Shown here: positions 2 through 44,182 of the stretch, in pieces
How positions within the stretch are numbered: the stretch's first letter is position 1
Layout of the letters: each line of letters starts with the position of its first letter
NCBI RefSeq assembly: GCF_029027405.1
Contig: NZ_CP093396.1
Span: 2,305,497 to 2,369,496 of the forward strand
Length of the DNA stretch: 64,000 bases
From: Sulfurimonas sp.
GTDB lineage: Bacteria > Campylobacterota > Campylobacteria > Campylobacterales > Sulfurimonadaceae
Direction: 5' to 3'
Notes under the pieces: model-generated
Database searches by the model: none
Told to the model about the DNA's origin: nothing
The model's input: the letters and a program-made list of their open reading frames with translations, nothing else
Program-made: the position numbers and the translations under genes

Positions 2-2224
2 AGTATAAGTACTATTCTTTCTATACTCATAATATTTATTGTTATCTTTTTTATAATAAAATCACCTAAAAATGAAGTTCAATACAATTCCATGGACTTT
101 ATTGAAGAAAAGCTAGATGAGAATACACAGGTCCATGTAGAACCTAGTAAACTTGAGCATATGATAGCAAAAGCCAACTACTTATACTCAACAGGTTCAA
201 AAGATGAAGCTCTATTTTTATATGAAAAAATTGCACAATATTCTGAAGCAATTTCTGTTTACAACTTAGGAGTGGCTCAACTAAAAGATGGAGACTATGA
301 GATAGCACTCAAAACATTTAAAAAAGCAATTTTAAATGATGAAAAAAGATGTGTTAGTGCAATAAATGCTGCTGTTTGTTCTTTACATTTAGGCTATGAG
401 AAAAGCTTTAGATATTATATAGACCTTGCACATGCCTACTTAGCAAAAGAAAAAAATTCACCCTTATATTCTTATTATTATACTCTTATTAGCTACTACA
501 ACCAAAACTATTACGAAGCGCTAAGTGCATTAGAGGATCCAACAAGTGAGGAATATCCAACTACTCAAAAACATTTAAAAGCTAAAATAAATGCTCTTTA
601 TTCAAATAATTATAAAGCCGTTGAAGCGATGGAAAAAGATTTTGATACAGATGATTCTTTTAATATCGCTCTTTTATATGCGAAAATTGGAGATATTACA
701 CTTGCTCAAAAATATTTAAAAGAGTCTCTTATTAAAAATATAGAACCTGTTAGATCAGCTATTGCTCAAGCTTTTATTAACTTAAAAGCAGGTCAAGTAA
801 CAACGGCAAGTAAGCAACTTAAGAATGTAACAGATATGTTCCCAGAGAAAGTTTATGAGCCATATCCAATAAAAGTAAAATTAAAAGATTCTCTATTTGA
901 CCCACTAAAAGCACAGGTTCGGTACAGAGAAAAAATTGTTAACTCTCAACTTTTTAACTATCAAAAAATATTTTATTATGCTCCTTATAAAATATTTAAT
1001 GCAGATAAAACTATTAGTTTCATTCAAAAAGGTAATGCAAATATTTATATTAACAATACTTCATCTGCTAAACAATATTTAAGAAGAAGTGCTTCGTCTT
1101 CAAATGTAAATAAAGGTATTGTTATCGCGATAAAGAATGCTCTTGCCTTTAAACTTAGAGATGCAAACAATGAGCTACAAAGATTAGTTAAAATTCAACC
1201 AAAACATTCAATACTTCAATATAATCTTGCATTAACTTATGCTCAAATGGGAGATATAAATAAAGCTAATAAGCACTTTATACTCTCTTTTCATTTAGAC
1301 TCAAAAAATTACTTGTCTGGTATTTTTGCTATTATGACAAGCCAGCTTATAAATAAAAATGCAACAAATTTAACAGTTATTCTAAAAGATTCAATCCTAT
1401 TAGAAAAAGATAGTGAGCAGATATATATGTACAAAACACTTTTAAATATCAGTGATAATAACATTTTATCAAGTGCTGATTGGCTCGATAAAGATTATAA
1501 GCAAAAACCGCTATATTTAGCACTAGACACCATAATAGCTTTGGAATTGGGAAATAATAAACTAGCAAAAAAAGCTTCTCATAAACTAACTCTATTACTG
1601 CCAAATGAAATCCTTTCACATATAATGTACATTGATGCACATTTTAGAGACTTCAAACCTAAAATTTATGCAAAAAAAGTATTAAACTATTTAAAATTAC
1701 AAAAATTATCTTTTGATGATTTGTATTATGGACCATATATTACTAGATATTTATATATTCAACAAAATCTTATTATTGGTAGATTATACTTTTTGAGACA
1801 GCAACTTAAAGATGTACTTGAGAGTACAGATTCAAATACACACGAGATAGCAAGTTCTCTTGCATTAGCTTCTCTTTACGATAAAGCTTTTGAAGAATCA
1901 TATACACTATATAATCACTTGATAGATAATTTAAAAGTAAGGGATGCGTACACAATTTTTTTAGGAGCAGTAGCATCTACTGCAGCTTTACATCATGCAA
2001 ATGCTATAGTTCTTTTAAAATTAGCAAAAATGAAAGACAACAACTTTCTTGAAAGTAGATACGCTCTTGGTTTGCTCTACTTAGAAGTAAAAAATAATAA
2101 AGGAGCTGTTATACAGTTCGCTAGAGTTGGAGACAATGGTTTTAATTCTAGTTATTTTGATTTTCAAATAGACTTAGAGGAGTTACTATTTGAAAAAGAA
2201 CAAAAAGAGAAAAGTAAAAACTAA
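2..2224 (+). CDS. Membrane-anchored TPR protein (5' end outside window)
   Basis: The frame is open from base 2, well upstream of the first ATG at 92. The residues before that ATG form a hydrophobic stretch rich in Ile, Phe and Val (bases 8-58) followed by a Lys, so the real protein probably starts outside the window with a single membrane anchor. The remaining 710 residues are a long alpha-helical repeat region. TPR-like pairs are visible near residues 30-100 and 360-400 (counted from the ATG), with typical Ala/Gly/Tyr spacing and phrases such as YNLALTYAQMGD. No catalytic motif is seen. Proteins of this kind usually act as scaffolds; the partner is unknown. The gene converges on pssA with four bases between the stops. 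Confidence 0.75.
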   Translation, partial: SISTILSILIIFIVIFFIIKSPKNEVQYNSMDFIEEKLDENTQVHVEPSKLEHMIAKANYLYSTGSKDEALFLYEKIAQYSEAISVYNLGVAQLKDGDYEIALKTFKKAILNDEKRCVSAINAAVCSLHLGYEKSFRYYIDLAHAYLAKEKNSPLYSYYYTLISYYNQNYYEALSALEDPTSEEYPTTQKHLKAKINALYSNNYKAVEAMEKDFDTDDSFNIALLYAKIGDITLAQKYLKESLIKNIEPVRSAIAQAFINLKAGQVTTASKQLKNVTDMFPEKVYEPYPIKVKLKDSLFDPLKAQVRYREKIVNSQLFNYQKIFYYAPYKIFNADKTISFIQKGNANIYINNTSSAKQYLRRSASSSNVNKGIVIAIKNALAFKLRDANNELQRLVKIQPKHSILQYNLALTYAQMGDINKANKHFILSFHLDSKNYLSGIFAIMTSQLINKNATNLTVILKDSILLEKDSEQIYMYKTLLNISDNNILSSADWLDKDYKQKPLYLALDTIIALELGNNKLAKKASHKLTLLLPNEILSHIMYIDAHFRDFKPKIYAKKVLNYLKLQKLSFDDLYYGPYITRYLYIQQNLIIGRLYFLRQQLKDVLESTDSNTHEIASSLALASLYDKAFEESYTLYNHLIDNLKVRDAYTIFLGAVASTAALHHANAIVLLKLAKMKDNNFLESRYALGLLYLEVKNNKGAVIQFARVGDNGFNSSYFDFQIDLEELLFEKEQKEKSKN

Positions 2225-2228
2225 AAGC

Positions 2229-2948
2229 CTATTTCTTTACAAGTGTTTTTGGCATCAGTATTACAGTTCTTGCAATTCCATACAAGATATATATAACTGC
2301 CAATAAAGTAAAACCTTCAATAGGGTACATAAAAACAAGTAGTAGAGCAGAAAGTATAAAAACAAAAGATTTCATAGCGTGTTTAGGCGATAAATCTATC
2401 TTTTTAAAGCTAGGATATCGAATATTACTAACCATTAAAATTGACACTAAAATTGATAATAACATAATAACAATTCCATAATCAACATTAAGGTCATATT
2501 TATGAAATAACAGAACAAGCAAAGAGACAAAAACAGCTGCAGTAGGTATAGGAACACCAATAAACACACTAGGTTCACTACTAACAGTCATCACATTAAA
2601 CCTAGCAAGTCTTATAGCACCAAAAATGACAAATAGTGCAGATGCAACCACGCCAAATCTACCAAATTCATGACCAACAAATAAGTACATTAAAAGTGCT
2701 GGAGCAACACCAAAAGCTACCATGTCTGCCAAAGAATCAAACTCTACTCCAAACTTTGAACAAGTATTTGTGAGTCTTGCAACTCTTCCATCTATACCAT
2801 CTAAGATTAATGAAAGCATTATTAACCAAGAAGCTTTGTCATACTCACCGTTAACTGCACTAATGATGCTAAATACACCCGAAAAAATTGAAGCTGCTGT
2901 GAAAATATTTGGCAGTATGTATATTAAATTAGCTTGTTTGGTCTTCAT
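2229..2948 (-). CDS. pssA: CDP-diacylglycerol--serine O-phosphatidyltransferase
   Basis: PssA joins CDP-diacylglycerol and L-serine to make phosphatidylserine, the precursor of phosphatidylethanolamine, at the inner membrane. The CDP-alcohol phosphotransferase signature (DG..AR, then G...D...D) lies at residues 50-75, beginning DGIDGRVAR. Several hydrophobic helices follow, and the 239-residue length is normal for the Campylobacterota and Bacillus-type enzyme. Its start overlaps the end of ftsH by 20 bp, so it is probably the last gene of the operon that begins near 8.9 kb and is translationally coupled to ftsH. Confidence 0.93.
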   Translation of the reverse strand: MKTKQANLIYILPNIFTAASIFSGVFSIISAVNGEYDKASWLIMLSLILDGIDGRVARLTNTCSKFGVEFDSLADMVAFGVAPALLMYLFVGHEFGRFGVVASALFVIFGAIRLARFNVMTVSSEPSVFIGVPIPTAAVFVSLLVLLFHKYDLNVDYGIVIMLLSILVSILMVSNIRYPSFKKIDLSPKHAMKSFVFILSALLLVFMYPIEGFTLLAVIYILYGIARTVILMPKTLVKK

Positions 2949-4902
2949 CTTTTACATCTTTTTTTACCATTTTGGCATCTTCTTTTAACTCTTCTTTTAT
3001 CTCATTAACTGATTCAATAACCTTAGATTTTAGATTGTTCTCTTTTTCAAAATTGACTATAATTTCTCTTACTTCATCGCCTGTAATATTTTCTTTTTCA
3101 TATAAAAGTTCAACCATATTTTCAATGGCACCTTTATACTCTTCTAATCGCTTTATTACGCTACCGTAATGTTCCTCTAATGATGATTTAATGAAGTTAT
3201 CCATCTCCTCAGCCATTTTATCACTATATTCACGAGTAGCTTGTTGACCACCACCTATAAAAGATTGTCTACTTTTTTCTAAAACCATCAGACCAGCTAC
3301 ATCTGTCATTCCATATGTTTGTACCATTGATTTAATAATATCTGTAGAACGCTCCAAATCATTTCCAGCACCAGTAGAAATCTCACCTATAAAAACTTCT
3401 TCGGCAGCTCTACCACCAAGTAAAACATCTACTTCTGCCCACATTTCAAAGCGTTGCATCATAAATCTATCTTCTTCTGGTTTGTTTAGAGTATAACCTA
3501 AAGCAGCAAGACCACGAGGCACTATAGAAACTTTAGAAACTTTTTTTGCTCCATCTGTAGTTTCAGCTAACAGGGCATGTCCACTCTCGTGATAAGCAAC
3601 AATTTTTTTCTCTTTTGGATTTATACGACGAGATTTTTTAGCAAGTCCTGCTATTGCTCTCTCAACTGATTCAAATAAATCACTCTGCTTAACAGTTTTT
3701 TGACTTTTTCTACCAGCAAGTAATGCTGCTTCATTTATTATATTTGCTAAGTCTGCACCTGCAAGTCCTGCTGTAAGTCGAGCTATTTCATCTATCTCTA
3801 CATCATCATCCATTTTTACGCTTTTCATGTGTACTTTTAAGATTTTAACACGACCTTCAAAATCTGGCTTATCCACTAATACTTGTCTATCAAAACGCCC
3901 TGGTCTTAAAAGTGCTGCATCTAGCACCTCTGGTCTATTTGTAGCAGCTAATATAATTACCGGTGTATCAGTACCAAAACCATCCATCTCTGCTAATAGT
4001 TGGTTTAAAGTTTGTTCTCTTTCATCATTCCCACCCATCATGCCACCAGCAGCACGACTTTTACCAATTGCATCTATTTCATCTATAAAAATTATACTTG
4101 GTGCATCTTTTTTTGCTTGCTCAAATAGGTCACGAACACGAGCCGCACCAACACCAACAAACATTTCTATAAAACTAGAACCGTTTACCGAGAAAAATGG
4201 AACATCTGCTTCACCCGCAACAGCTTTAGCTAAAAGTGTCTTACCAGTACCTGGAGAACCAACAAGTAAAACACCCTTTGGAATTTTAGCACCAATTTCA
4301 ACATAACGAGCAGGATACTTTAAAAAATCAACAATTTCTTGAACTTCTTCTTTTGCTTCTTCAACACCTGCAACATCATCAAATTTTGTATCCGGTTTTT
4401 CTGAGTTAATCATTTTTTTAGAATTACCCATACCTAGAATTCCGCCACCCATGCTTTTTTGCATGCGTCCAGCGAAGAACATCCAAATACCTATAATAAG
4501 TAAAAATGGAAATAACCAACCAAACATTTCTGTAAACCAATTTGTTTCACTAAAACCAGAGTAATCAATACCTTTGCTATCTAGTAATGAAACAAGATTT
4601 ACATCACCTGGTATCAGTCTAGTTGTATAAATCATCCCATCTGCAGATTTTGCTTTTATGTAGCTTTGCCCTATTTCTACTTTTGATAAACTCTTAGACT
4701 CTATTAAGCCTTTAAATTCTGAGTAGCTAACTTGTTTTGATCTGCTCGTTGAAGTGCCATTATTCGCATTAAATGCTGAGCCATCACCGACTAGTCCCTT
4801 GAACAACATAATTATTACAATTGAAAAAATTGCAAAAGTTATTAGTGGGTTTTTATTAAAAAAATTATTATTTTTATCATCATTTGAATTTTGTTTTGAC
4901 AT
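2929..4902 (-). CDS. ftsH: ATP-dependent zinc metalloprotease FtsH
   Basis: FtsH is a hexameric, membrane-bound AAA+ protease that degrades misfolded membrane proteins and short-lived regulators. Two membrane segments (about residues 19-38 and 128-145) flank a periplasmic domain. Walker A GSPGTGKT is at 215-222, Walker B IIFIDEID at 270-277, the second region of homology (ATNRPEVLDAALLRPGRFDR) at about 320-339, and the zinc site HESGH at 438-442. I chose the ATG at 4902 (657 residues): it has an AAAGAGA ribosome site, matches the family N-terminus and leaves 14 bp after prmA. The ATG at 4947 would add 15 basic residues and overlap prmA. Confidence 0.96.
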   Translation of the reverse strand: MSKQNSNDDKNNNFFNKNPLITFAIFSIVIIMLFKGLVGDGSAFNANNGTSTSRSKQVSYSEFKGLIESKSLSKVEIGQSYIKAKSADGMIYTTRLIPGDVNLVSLLDSKGIDYSGFSETNWFTEMFGWLFPFLLIIGIWMFFAGRMQKSMGGGILGMGNSKKMINSEKPDTKFDDVAGVEEAKEEVQEIVDFLKYPARYVEIGAKIPKGVLLVGSPGTGKTLLAKAVAGEADVPFFSVNGSSFIEMFVGVGAARVRDLFEQAKKDAPSIIFIDEIDAIGKSRAAGGMMGGNDEREQTLNQLLAEMDGFGTDTPVIILAATNRPEVLDAALLRPGRFDRQVLVDKPDFEGRVKILKVHMKSVKMDDDVEIDEIARLTAGLAGADLANIINEAALLAGRKSQKTVKQSDLFESVERAIAGLAKKSRRINPKEKKIVAYHESGHALLAETTDGAKKVSKVSIVPRGLAALGYTLNKPEEDRFMMQRFEMWAEVDVLLGGRAAEEVFIGEISTGAGNDLERSTDIIKSMVQTYGMTDVAGLMVLEKSRQSFIGGGQQATREYSDKMAEEMDNFIKSSLEEHYGSVIKRLEEYKGAIENMVELLYEKENITGDEVREIIVNFEKENNLKSKVIESVNEIKEELKEDAKMVKKDVKDEDQTS

Positions 4903-40608: not shown

Positions 40609-41221
40609 ACTTCTCCAATTCTTTTTTTATTAAAGCTTTAGCTTCTTCTAGTTTCATCCCATCAACATCTACGGGCGAAGATGCATAATAATTTAACATA
40701 CCAAAAGGTTTTGGTATAAGAAATTTATCCCAACTATTTAACTGCCAAAACTTTGTTGCCACTATTTTAACTAAAACTACTTTTGTTTTAGTTTTTTGTG
40801 CCATGACAATTATACCATCTGCCACTTCATGTCTTGGTCCTTTTGGACCATCTGGTGTTATTCCTATATCAAAACCATTTTTTAAACTCTTCATAGCTTG
40901 AATTAGAACTCTTGTAGCATTTCTATTTGAAGACCCTGCAATAGTATCAAGCCCAAAATATTTTACAGTTTTTGAAATCAATTTTCCATCAAAATGAGGA
41001 GAAATTAAAACTTTTGCATGAGGTTTTTTTCTACAATAAAGATATACATATGGCAACATCAAAAGTTCCCCATGCCAACAGGCGAAAATAATTGGCTCAT
41101 TACCTATGGTTTTTGGAACATGAAATACTTTTTTGTTAGTTAAATAAATAAGTCTGATAAGCAAAGAGGCTATAAATGGAAGGATAAGAAGTGCCAAAGC
41201 ACGACTTATATTTTTAAGCAA
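40598..41221 (-). CDS. DUF374 lysophospholipid acyltransferase-like protein
   Basis: The 207-residue protein starts with a membrane helix and contains the acyltransferase-like stretch [15 protein letters not shown] and the DUF374 phrase [29 protein letters not shown]. The family is linked to lipid A or phospholipid acylation; the substrate is not established. It overlaps miaB by eight bases. The same miaB-DUF374 neighbourhood is found in other Campylobacterota. Confidence 0.8.
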
Positions 41222-42512
41222 CGATTTCTCCTGTTAAAATTGTTCTTCCAATAGAAGTTATCTTAACATCTCGAAACTCTCCTAAAAGTTCATCTGAACC
41301 TTTTACTTTTATGACAATATTGTCATCACTTCTACCACTTACAAAATAATCTTGTATCAGGTCTTGGAAATAAACACGATAAGTTTTACCTAAAGATGTA
41401 GCATTTATTTCATCTAAAATATCGGTATGTATATTTTGTAATTTTGTAAGTCTTGCAGATGCAATATCTGCATCTACTGTATTTGTAAAATGCTCTGCTT
41501 CAGTTTGGGGTCTAGCAGAATACTTAAAAGAAAAGATTTGGTTAAATCTAACTTGATTCATAACATCTAAAGTATCTTCAAAATCTTCATCACTCTCCCC
41601 TGGGAAAGCTACTATAATATCAGTAGATATACTAACCTCTGGACACTCTGAGCGAAGTTTTTTTACACGATTTAAAAACCACTCTTTAGAGTAACCTCTT
41701 TTCATATCTTTTAAAACCTTTGTACTTCCGCTTTGAAGAGGCATGTGCATTGATTTACAAATTTTAGGGTTAGATGCGAACTCCTCAATAAACTCATCAT
41801 CCATGTGAAAAGGGTGTGGAGATGTAAAGCGAATTCTTTGTAAATTTTGGATTTCACTAAGCTCTTGAAGAAGTTTTGTAAAGTTTGATTTTTCATGTCC
41901 ACCAGAAAAACGGCGACCATAATTGTTAACATTTTGTCCCAAAAGAAAAATCTCTTTAGCACCGTTATTTACAGCTCTTCTTGATTCATCAATGATTAAA
42001 TTCATAGGAATAGAGATCTCATCGCCACGAGTTTTTGGAACGATACAATAAGTGCAAGACTTATCACAGCCCATAGAAATATTTATAAAAGCTTTATATG
42101 GAGATGTTCTAAAATCATCAAAAGCAAACTCACTTTCATCATAATTTATATCTATTTCAACAGCTTTATCTTTATGTAAAACTTCACTGATTTTAGAAAC
42201 ATTTCTAGCACCTAAAACAAAGTTTACATAAGGTGCTCTTTTGATTATTTCTTCACCTAAATGTGACGCAGTACAACCACAAACACCTATTTTAGCATCT
42301 GCTTTTTTCTTTTTGTTAAATATCCCTAACTCTGAAAAAAGTTTAGAAACAGGTTTCTCTCTAACTGAGCAGGTATTTATCAAAATAAGGTCAGCTTCTT
42401 TAAAGTCGCTTGTAGTTTCATAGCCATCTTTTTCTCGTAACTGAGCAATCATATGCTCACTATCTCGAGAGTTCATAGCACAACCTAAAGTTTCAACAAA
42501 GAGTTTTTTCAC
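41214..42512 (-). CDS. miaB: tRNA-2-methylthio-N6-dimethylallyladenosine synthase
   Basis: MiaB adds a methylthio group to i6A37 in tRNAs that read UNN codons. The MTTase domain has cysteines in [22 protein letters not shown] and VCGCTASH; the radical-SAM motif is [12 protein letters not shown], and a TRAM domain is at the end. GCAMNxxDSE is diagnostic of MiaB. The 432 residues are typical. It follows the HP0268-like gene by 12 bases and overlaps the DUF374 gene. Confidence 0.95.
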
Positions 42513-42524
42513 TATTTAATATTC

Positions 42525-42770
42525 CTAGTTAATGATATGAACTTGGTACATATATTCATTATCAGATAGACCAAATTTAACTTCATTCATATAAAAACTT
42601 TTACCTTTTTCTTCAAAATGATCTTGAAGTGAAAGTAAATCTTTATGAGAGTTTTCTCTATCAAAATAAAAAATCTTACTCCCGTCTTTTTCAACACTAG
42701 CTTCGATTTTTTCTAACTCAGCCTTTTTTGGTTTTGCATCAATATCTGTTCTTGCGAATTTTAAATCCAT
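42525..42770 (-). CDS. HP0268-family protein (small nuclease family)
   Basis: The 81-residue protein matches the Helicobacter HP0268 pattern: IFYFDRENSHKDLLSLQDHFEEKGKS is close to the IFYF...NAHKDML...FKEKG region, and the end YQVHII matches LYELHII. HP0268 has been reported to have nicking DNase and purine-specific RNase activity, so a nucleic-acid role is possible. I chose ATG 42770, with an AAGGA ribosome site; the GTG at 42851 would translate a hairpin-forming leader and is unlikely. It heads the miaB operon. Confidence 0.82.
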   Translation of the reverse strand: MDLKFARTDIDAKPKKAELEKIEASVEKDGSKIFYFDRENSHKDLLSLQDHFEEKGKSFYMNEVKFGLSDNEYMYQVHIIN

Positions 42771-42797
42771 TTTTATTTTCCTTAATTTTATTGCATA

Positions 42798-42924
42798 AAA
42801 TGAAGGGAACCCTTCATTTATTTGTAACGATGACGGAAGTAATTCCGCCACCTACGCTAACACTTGGTTTTCTTCGGCAGAAAGCCCATAGCACTAGTGC
42901 TTTAACTTTTATTGTTTATAATTT
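42798..42924 (-). ncRNA. Candidate structured RNA or attenuated leader upstream of the HP0268-like gene
   Basis: On the minus strand, downstream of a TATAAT (about 42931-42936), three hairpins follow in order: GGCTTTCT with AGAAAACC (one mismatch; about 42867-42888), GGCGGAA with TTCCGTC around TTAC (about 42831-42848), and a 10-bp stem AAATGAAGGG/CCCTTCATTT (42798-42819) followed by TTTTAT, as in an intrinsic terminator. The region is richer in G+C than its surroundings. It could be a small RNA or a leader that controls read-through into the HP0268-miaB operon. I do not recognise a known family. Confidence 0.4.
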
Positions 42925-42973
42925 TTGCATTATATATAAAACCTACTAAAAGTCTGATTAAGACTAGTTTTGA

Positions 42974-42979
42974 TATAAT
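42974..42979 (+). promoter_or_regulatory. Extended -10 promoter for nusA
   Basis: TGATATAAT lies 69 bases upstream of the nusA ATG at 43049, which has an AAGGA ribosome site. A second TATAAT at 42917-42922 could also serve on this strand. Confidence 0.45.
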
Positions 42980-43048
42980 TTCATACTTCATAAGAAATCC
43001 CCCAAAAACCATTACATTTATTTTTTGTGAAATATAAGGAATTTAATC

Positions 43049-44182
43049 ATGGAAAAAATATTAGACATAGTAGATGCAATCGCACATGAGAAAGGTCTTC
43101 AACCTGAAAAAGTTATAGAGGCTTTAAAAACAGCATTTGTTCAAACTGCAAAAAGAGTTATCGATAGAAATTTTGCTTTTGTAGCTGAGATAAATGATGA
43201 AACAAAAAGTATAGAAATAATTCAAACAATTACAGTTATCGCAGACGATGATGAAAAATTATTAGATGAAGAAATAGCACCGGCATATATCTCAATCACA
43301 GATGCCAGAGAGTATGATGATCAAGTAGAACTTGAAGACCAATTGCAAGTCCCTCACTCACTTGAAGAATATGGAAGGACAGGTGCTTCTCAGCTTCATC
43401 GTGAAATCGAGTTTCATATACAAAGACTAGTAGAAGATGAACTATTTAACAAATATAAATCAAAAATAGGCACTTTAGTAACTGGTCGAGTTACAAGTGT
43501 TGACCCGCATAATGCAACATATATAGAAGTAGATGAAGTGCGTGCTGTTCTTCCTATGAAAAGCCGTATAAAAGGTGAAATTTTTGTAAAAGGTGATCAC
43601 TTAAAAGCTGTTGTTCGTCGTGTAAATATGGACAAAGAAAATGGTATTCAAATCGAGCTTTCTCGTACTAGTCCAAAGTTTTTAGAAGAGCTTTTAGCAC
43701 TTGAAGTTCCTGAAATTGCAGATGGCACAGTTATCGTAGAAAAATCAGCTCGTATCCCTGGAGAAAGAGCAAAAATCGCACTTCTTAGTACTCATCCCCA
43801 AGTAGATGCTGTCGGTGCTACAGTAGGTGTTAAGGGTGTTCGTATAAATGCTGTTAGCCAAGAGTTAATCGGTGAAAATATTGATTGTGTTGAGTTTACA
43901 AGTATTCAAGAACTTTTCATCTCAAGAGTAATGAGTCCTGCAATAATTTCTCATGTTGAACTTGTTAAAAATGAGGAAGGTGAAGCCCAAAAAGCAATTA
44001 TAACTTTGCCAGCTGACCAAAAATCAAAAGCAATCGGGAAAAGTGGTATAAATATTCGTTTAGCATCTATGCTAACAGGTTTAAACATTGAACTAGTTGA
44101 AAATGATCAAGTAACAAATGAAGACGGAGAACTACAAGAAGCTAAAGATGGTGTAGATGCATTAGAAGCATTATTTAATTAA
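43049..44182 (+). CDS. nusA: Transcription termination/antitermination factor NusA
   Basis: NusA binds RNA polymerase and nascent RNA and controls pausing, termination and antitermination. The 377-residue protein has the N-terminal polymerase-binding domain (1-125), an S1 domain (about 135-200, IGTLVTGRVTSVDPHNATYIEV) and two KH domains (including GVKGVRINAVSQELIGENIDCVE and AIGKSGINIRLASMLTG). It lacks the C-terminal acidic repeats of E. coli NusA, as is usual in this phylum. Confidence 0.95.
   Translation: MEKILDIVDAIAHEKGLQPEKVIEALKTAFVQTAKRVIDRNFAFVAEINDETKSIEIIQTITVIADDDEKLLDEEIAPAYISITDAREYDDQVELEDQLQVPHSLEEYGRTGASQLHREIEFHIQRLVEDELFNKYKSKIGTLVTGRVTSVDPHNATYIEVDEVRAVLPMKSRIKGEIFVKGDHLKAVVRRVNMDKENGIQIELSRTSPKFLEELLALEVPEIADGTVIVEKSARIPGERAKIALLSTHPQVDAVGATVGVKGVRINAVSQELIGENIDCVEFTSIQELFISRVMSPAIISHVELVKNEEGEAQKAIITLPADQKSKAIGKSGINIRLASMLTGLNIELVENDQVTNEDGELQEAKDGVDALEALFN

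Follow-up and report, generated by a model that had tools for sequence, protein, structure and literature searches.

The HP0268-miaB locus and its leader

The window (the whole stretch of DNA analysed, 64,000 nucleotides of a Sulfurimonas genome) carries on its minus strand a gene of the HP0268 family (42525..42770; Pfam PF18618, E 2.5e-35), followed downstream by a miaB-like gene (41214..42512, minus strand; UPF0004 and Radical SAM domains), named from its domain make-up and from an earlier description made by a model from the letters alone, hereafter the sequence-only reading. The divergent gene on the plus strand is nusA (43049..44182; Pfam NusA_N and KH domains). Read towards HP0268, the minus strand presents in order the -10 region of the HP0268-miaB promoter (TATATAATGC..., 42914..42936, with the -10 at about 42930), some 10 nt, a structured element, the Shine-Dalgarno (SD) sequence, and the HP0268 start codon at 42770. 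In 28 of 30 Sulfurimonas loci the sequence in front of HP0268 contains the motif TAYAATSC, and the TATAAT already noticed there is thus real and conserved. Most of these boxes stand 31-60 nt from the start codon; in the window, where the insertion of the element has separated box and start codon, the distance is 164 nt. Judged from the sequences of these orthologous leaders, the HP0268-miaB promoter predates the insertion.

The element, at 42779-42903 of the minus strand, is a structured unit that follows the promoter and precedes the ribosome-binding site of HP0268. Composed of two modules, A and B, it was delimited from landmarks and from the match of a covariance model, R1 (42778-42908, minus strand; 141.5 bits, E 4e-34), built from 30 rows that include the window copy; a second model, R2, whose rows exclude this copy, has its sole match in the window at 42827-42905 of the same strand (82 bits). 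The leader (42785-42935, minus strand) is predicted to fold at -39.3 kcal/mol, compared with -25.5 (sd 3.2) in 200 shuffled sequences (z -4.3, no shuffle as good), while the plus strand of the leader reaches a z of -2.6 only. The hairpins described in the sequence-only reading are therefore real, with the right coordinates and the right position in front of HP0268.

The reading had also proposed a search of Rfam, which left the window without a matching family: none of 4227 families matched at gathering score, and the best matches of a permissive scan had E values of 2.7 and above. No named family for the element was found in Rfam, in phage and plasmid collections, or in a literature covered mainly outside subscription journals and preprints; the portions available of PMC12306157, PMC3847290, PMC7755780, PMC13209400 and PMC10969869 do not describe it. 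As developed below, the element is very probably one copy of a dispersed, non-autonomous and modular repeat family of free-living Campylobacterota, that is, an apparently undescribed group of small folding repeats scattered across genomes of Campylobacter relatives that metabolise sulfur.

A covarying fold with a pseudoknot-like core

Module A (42827..42903, minus strand), supported by the R2 match and by covariation, comprises a hairpin H1, a pseudoknotted hairpin H2, a mini-hairpin H2b, UAG, a hairpin H3 and CGU. Its structure was evaluated on 47 aligned copies, five members of other families (L028, L030, L047-L049) having been excluded beforehand; 17 of the 47 were then dropped as truncated, carrying inserts or consisting of a single module, leaving 30 complete insert-free copies (alignment A1). 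Standard pairs occupy 96.3% of the A1 cells compared with 80.5% after shuffling, compensatory double changes are found at 20 of 26 pairs, pseudoknot included, and the covariation score is 0.543 compared with 0.223 (sd 0.013) in shuffled alignments; none of 500 shuffles reached the observed score (slid controls gave 0.06-0.11). The structure thus withstands the conservation and covariation check by which the sequence-only reading could have been refuted.

The support extends to each helix. H1 (AAAGCACTAGTGCTAT, 42888..42903, minus strand), a near-perfect palindrome, shows double-sided changes in five of its six pairs, and H3 (42829..42852, minus strand) in seven of ten. H2 (42869..42886, minus strand) is a five-pair stem closing a GCCGA loop (UUUCU-GCCGA-AGAAA), paired in 98.7% of cells across the 30 copies, and the three nucleotides directly 5' of the stem (GGC) pair with the first three of the loop (GCC). 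This three-pair contact covaries as well as the stems: its outer pair, 24-34, is G-C in 21 copies and A-U in nine, with no exception among the 30. As no linker separates them on either side, contact and stem could either coexist in a tight pseudoknot or be mutually exclusive. In the mini-hairpin H2b (GU-GUUA-GC, 42856..42863, minus strand), pair 48-53 is UA in 15 copies, CG in 13, UG in one and another combination in one.

A broader alignment of 72 module-A copies from several genera (A2, omitting three pattern copies with inserts) gave a covariation score of 0.460 compared with 0.218. Mini-hairpin and contact are 100% paired there, in a set of which 57 of the 72 rows were retrieved by a search pattern that already specified much of H2 and of the mini-hairpin, which makes A1 the source of the unbiased figure; H1 and H3 are paired in 60% and 78.5% of cells, low values that we attribute, judging by eye, to the placement of different genera in different registers by MAFFT. 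The same pairs emerged from a mutual-information scan of 84 distinct rows, which also hints at an extra contact, 38-46, based on two copies only.

Variation among copies also takes larger forms. A second hairpin unit of about 20 nt (GGTRCCCCTTGAGGGTA-like) is inserted at differing loops in L037, L025, L036, L032, L039, L057, L085, L087 and L170, a repeat within the repeat. A variant 5' half (CTTTAGTGCCATAGCGGCTAGCGTAG-like) is joined to the same H3 half in L185, L195, L025, L027 and L019, as if modules had been exchanged.

Module B and the HP0268 start site

Module B (42779..42819, minus strand), defined from the alignment, from covariation and from folding, consists of two competing hairpins and ends with the SD sequence. 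H4 (AAATGAAGGG-TT-CCCTTCATTT, 42798..42819, minus strand; -9.1 kcal/mol) pairs a CCUU with an upstream GAAGG, and H5 (42780..42806, minus strand; -6.2 kcal/mol) pairs that CCUU with AAGG, the core of the SD, and encloses an AU-rich stem, so that each hairpin excludes the other. H5 is paired in 98.5% of cells and has double-sided changes in four of its 11 pairs over the 30 copies. As a conserved helix in a single register, H4 found no covariation support; by eye, it is re-formed with another upstream stretch in several copies.

The H4 stem had been read as an intrinsic terminator, ending a small RNA or an attenuator. A -10 box upstream and the GC-richer hairpin are what speak for a stand-alone transcript ending at H4, a reading that nevertheless appears extremely improbable: only TTTTATG comes after H4, no terminator was found by a scan of 42500-43100, the hairpin stands 14 nt upstream of the HP0268 SD, and in other copies the corresponding segment is located within operons.

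In the window copy, H4 is stronger than H5, and the HP0268 start site is accordingly predicted to be open by default unless H4 is disturbed: its SD is 91% unpaired in the model at 37 C, within a spread of 0.07-0.98 among copies, and remains open throughout 5-55 C. An RNA thermometer was considered and rejected: in 29 copies of the 30 in A1, mean SD openness is 0.41 at 5 C and no more than 0.72 at 55 C, a widely scattered rise with no sharp step. The element is probably transcribed within the HP0268 mRNA leader, where module B would constitute a two-state start site, with H4 leaving the SD open and H5 masking it through CCUU:AAGG pairing, and HP0268 would be translated by default, H4 being the stronger arm in this copy.

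Copies in the genome of origin

The 2.83 Mb genome to which the window belongs (one contig) contains 22 R1 matches at E values up to 10, of which 12 have an E of about 0.001 or better, corresponding to some 12 copies; the other ten are weak matches or antisense echoes of module B. Nine of the twelve were given an ORF test, and in each the start codon of a gene in the same direction follows after 1-8 nt. The genes that follow them encode HP0268, a HypB-type GTPase, an iron-sulfur assembly domain protein, IlvC, a DUF520 protein, a DegT-type aminotransferase, an Era-like GTPase with a KH domain, a small ORF and a transketolase-like protein (the Pfam scan took in seven of the nine, leaving out the last two). 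Before hypB and era, the element begins 4-15 nt after the end of an ORF on its own strand, and is thus located inside operons.

This diversity is at odds with a leader acting as attenuator or riboswitch for a tRNA-modification operon, as the sequence-only reading had envisaged, since the same element precedes hypB, ilvC, DUF520/yajQ, era, tkt and other genes, and most orthologous HP0268 leaders are devoid of it. The multicopy distribution favours instead the dispersed hairpin repeat that the reading had placed at the end of its options, and the blast comparison it suggested, with the own genome and with relatives, returned multiple copies with compensatory changes. The reading is in this sense partly supported: the structured element it noticed is real, and the correct option closes its list.

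The remaining three of the twelve were read by eye, and include partial copies. L213, a module A devoid of H3, precedes a gene that we take to be secG, and L215, made of H3 and module B, a gene that is presumably ilvD. L216 seems to lie in antisense where a ribosomal-protein gene ends.

Distribution and orientation across Campylobacterota

A blast-type comparison with 60 genomes gave, for 28 of the 36 further genomes of the same genus, a best match with an E below 1e-5, and for the remaining eight none below that value; the strongest match outside the own genome (91% over 121 bases) is found in front of another gene. Among 249 genomes of the class with a completeness of 90% or more, 37 match at E 0.001, distributed over 10 of 55 genera and all belonging to the order of the window; 18 candidates per genome were scored, and the per-genome counts are hence at least those obtained. 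At E 0.01, two Sulfurospirillum strains hold 31 (S. diekertiae JPD-1) and 41 matches (S. cavolei UCH003), the latter species including head-to-tail arrays with a period of 92. A scan of species genomes for the exact core retrieved at least 120 stretches. Among the matches listed, 80 titled rows are assigned to Sulfurimonas or Sulfurimonadaceae (30), Sulfuricurvum (15), Sulfurospirillum or its family (15), Sulfurovum (1), other Campylobacterales or Epsilonproteobacteria (16), and one bin labelled 'Proteobacteria bacterium' (3). Many copies at unrelated sites are what a small interspersed repeat displays. A module-B match accompanies 34 of 121 exact-core copies, and in 31 of these an ORF starts within 2-22 nt; by eye, the other three are a copy before a short ribosomal-protein ORF (L132), a copy before another module B (L141) and a false module B (L136). 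Nearly all module-B copies are thus in sense and before a start codon. The family would be restricted to one phylum, its fold is unusually well supported for a bacterial interspersed repeat, and its copies stand where translation of housekeeping genes begins.

The alternative that has most to be weighed is a cis-acting regulator, a riboswitch-like or protein-binding leader recruited to many genes, with module A as the sensor and module B as the expression platform. Conserved core nucleotides and the pseudoknot agree with it, as do the competition of module B for the SD and the orientation of the pattern-found copies. Of 121 such copies, 10 near a locus end and four inside an ORF call were set aside, and the remaining 107, classified against genes called by a simple ORF script rather than a trained gene finder, are sense to both neighbours in 62 cases, antisense to both in 22 (two-sided P 1.5e-5), divergent in 12 and convergent in 11.

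Against a regulator, the downstream genes share no common theme, the element is missing from most orthologous leaders, and module A also occurs unaccompanied by module B, in antisense, next to tRNA genes and within 23S rRNA. The sense bias is also lost in Sulfurospirillum, whose titled rows divide into 5 and 5, and whose two complete genomes (31 copies minus one at an edge) give nine sense/sense, seven antisense, three convergent and 11 divergent cases among 30, one of the divergent copies (L256) lying inside an ORF call. Taken together, a recruited regulator seems unlikely. The Sulfurospirillum antisense copies fit the model no worse than the sense ones (mean 81.7 bits for the seven, 78.0 for the nine sense copies), which argues that the fold is kept mainly for the element itself, its use in mRNA being secondary; the fold would then have been selected chiefly for the spread of the element, and insertions would persist where the coding sequence and the SD are spared. 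In genomes of this group, structured leaders deserve to be checked for dispersal before being called riboswitches.

Insertion at orthologous sites

The same positions are occupied in some species and empty in others, as is the case for a small interspersed repeat. Among 30 orthologous HP0268 leaders, four have an R1 match in the direction of HP0268, two of them full and two variant: the window copy (L175), L190 with two copies, and L185 and L195 with the variant 5' half and weaker matches. L180 retains a degenerate module B in its HP0268 leader (by eye), and in the remaining loci a short leader runs directly into the SD. Similarly, three of 30 ilvC leaders are occupied, with an insertion point immediately before AAGGAAA. 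As most HP0268 and ilvC leaders are without the element, it was gained by insertion, just before the SD. The empty leaders are too diverged to give a near-identical filled/empty pair.

The nearest relatives of the window copy precede other genes. Vertical retention is apparent before ilvC and hypB, and lends some support to a regulator: identity is 78-88% among the ilvC copies of four genomes and 88% between two hypB copies, for an all-pair mean of 73%. These sites look inherited, so that not every copy is recent, and may represent retained, perhaps useful insertions.

The divergent gap between nusA and HP0268 has been occupied on both sides, in different species: in genome G015 (L182 1210-1356, minus strand), the element faces nusA, not HP0268.

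Presumed mobility and relation to known repeats

The repeat is called mobile here in a comparative sense, as its distribution suggests. Terminal inverted repeats are at chance level, the longest terminal match averaging 4.2 compared with 3.9 in shuffled sequences for modules A and B together, and 3.7 compared with 3.5 for module A, and the family was therefore not filed as a strict MITE. No mobilising gene was found in the genomes and loci searched (a Y1_Tnp search and the regions between inverted copies). A composite transposon was rejected: at two sites of one Sulfurospirillum genome, inverted copies 0.8-1.4 kb apart enclose genes that look, by eye, like ordinary metabolic ones. Integron attC sites were set aside too, no match to their core sites being seen by eye. 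A distant blastn search of plasmid and phage collections gave no match; the core pattern was found in one stretch among viral contigs.

REP sequences carry GTAG 5' of their hairpin, and GTAG also stands directly 5' of H3 in the consensus of the element. This feature, together with three Y1_Tnp genes in the own genome, is what could suggest repeats of the REP type, mobilised by a RAYT (Y1) transposase, a hypothesis that we regard as very unlikely. A fuzzy motif search of the three own Y1 loci recovered no match to the core or to module B, the own 172-aa Y1 gene is flanked, by eye, by a different repeat, and four of ten distinct genomes that bear the element have no Y1_Tnp match (G015, G017, G032 and G259, G017 being only 68% complete; the 12 genome entries searched reduce to ten, two being duplicated with identical coordinates). 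The repeat around the 172-aa gene is GGAAGTGAGGCTTTAGCCTCGC-like (L173, about 260-290, 1250-1320 and 1790-1830), and is probably the REP family of that gene. The element resembles REP sequences in being dispersed and palindromic with GTAG 5' of a hairpin, and differs from them in being larger and built differently, with three hairpins and a pseudoknot. A count table in work on REP sequences and RAYT transposases includes Sulfurimonas gotlandica and gives no description of the element (PMC12306157).

BOX elements of Streptococcus pneumoniae are modular intergenic repeats that fold when transcribed, are thought to be parasitic, can be co-transcribed with their neighbours and affect them (PMC3049150). 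The present element is likewise small, modular, interspersed, intergenic and folding, in a comparison made by description rather than by sequence or modules; BOX elements, which belong to a different phylum, have terminal inverted repeats and target duplications that are not seen here, whereas the present element has a pseudoknot-like core and a module B ending at the SD (PMC3049150). ERIC and other bacterial MITEs share with it a small size, an intergenic location, the lack of a gene of their own and tens of copies, in contrast with its chance-level terminal inverted repeats and the absence of a parent transposase from the searches made (PMC10969869). The best reading is that of a repeat family that behaves like BOX or ERIC, yet fails the terminal-repeat test.

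Copies in 23S rRNA and near tRNA genes

Module A has also reached an rRNA gene. In one Sulfurimonas genome (G012), two inverted module-A copies (L046, 2081-2159 on the plus strand and 2004-2083 on the minus strand) lie within the 23S gene (Rfam match 829-3893), and this pair is predicted to fold as one long stem (-83.8 kcal/mol). It likely constitutes a 23S intervening sequence built from the repeat, at a site that we take to be helix 45. The likeness to known 23S rRNA intervening sequences lies in this inverted pair, and the difference in the fact that the element is elsewhere seen outside rRNA.

A bolder and rather doubtful interpretation would be a mobile RNA-shaped element, whose pseudoknotted core spreads by a route other than a DNA transposon into mRNA leaders, tRNA surroundings and the 23S gene, and which would act as a portable translation switch, its CCUU arm pairing with the host Shine-Dalgarno sequence at the landing site. 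Viewed as a dispersed, non-autonomous repeat, the family offers tests of how small repeats spread with no visible transposase, how a repeat becomes an mRNA leader, and how an rRNA gene gains an intervening sequence.

Module-A copies near tRNA genes (confirmed with Rfam) were observed in several genomes, at L163, L165, L169, L127 and L136.
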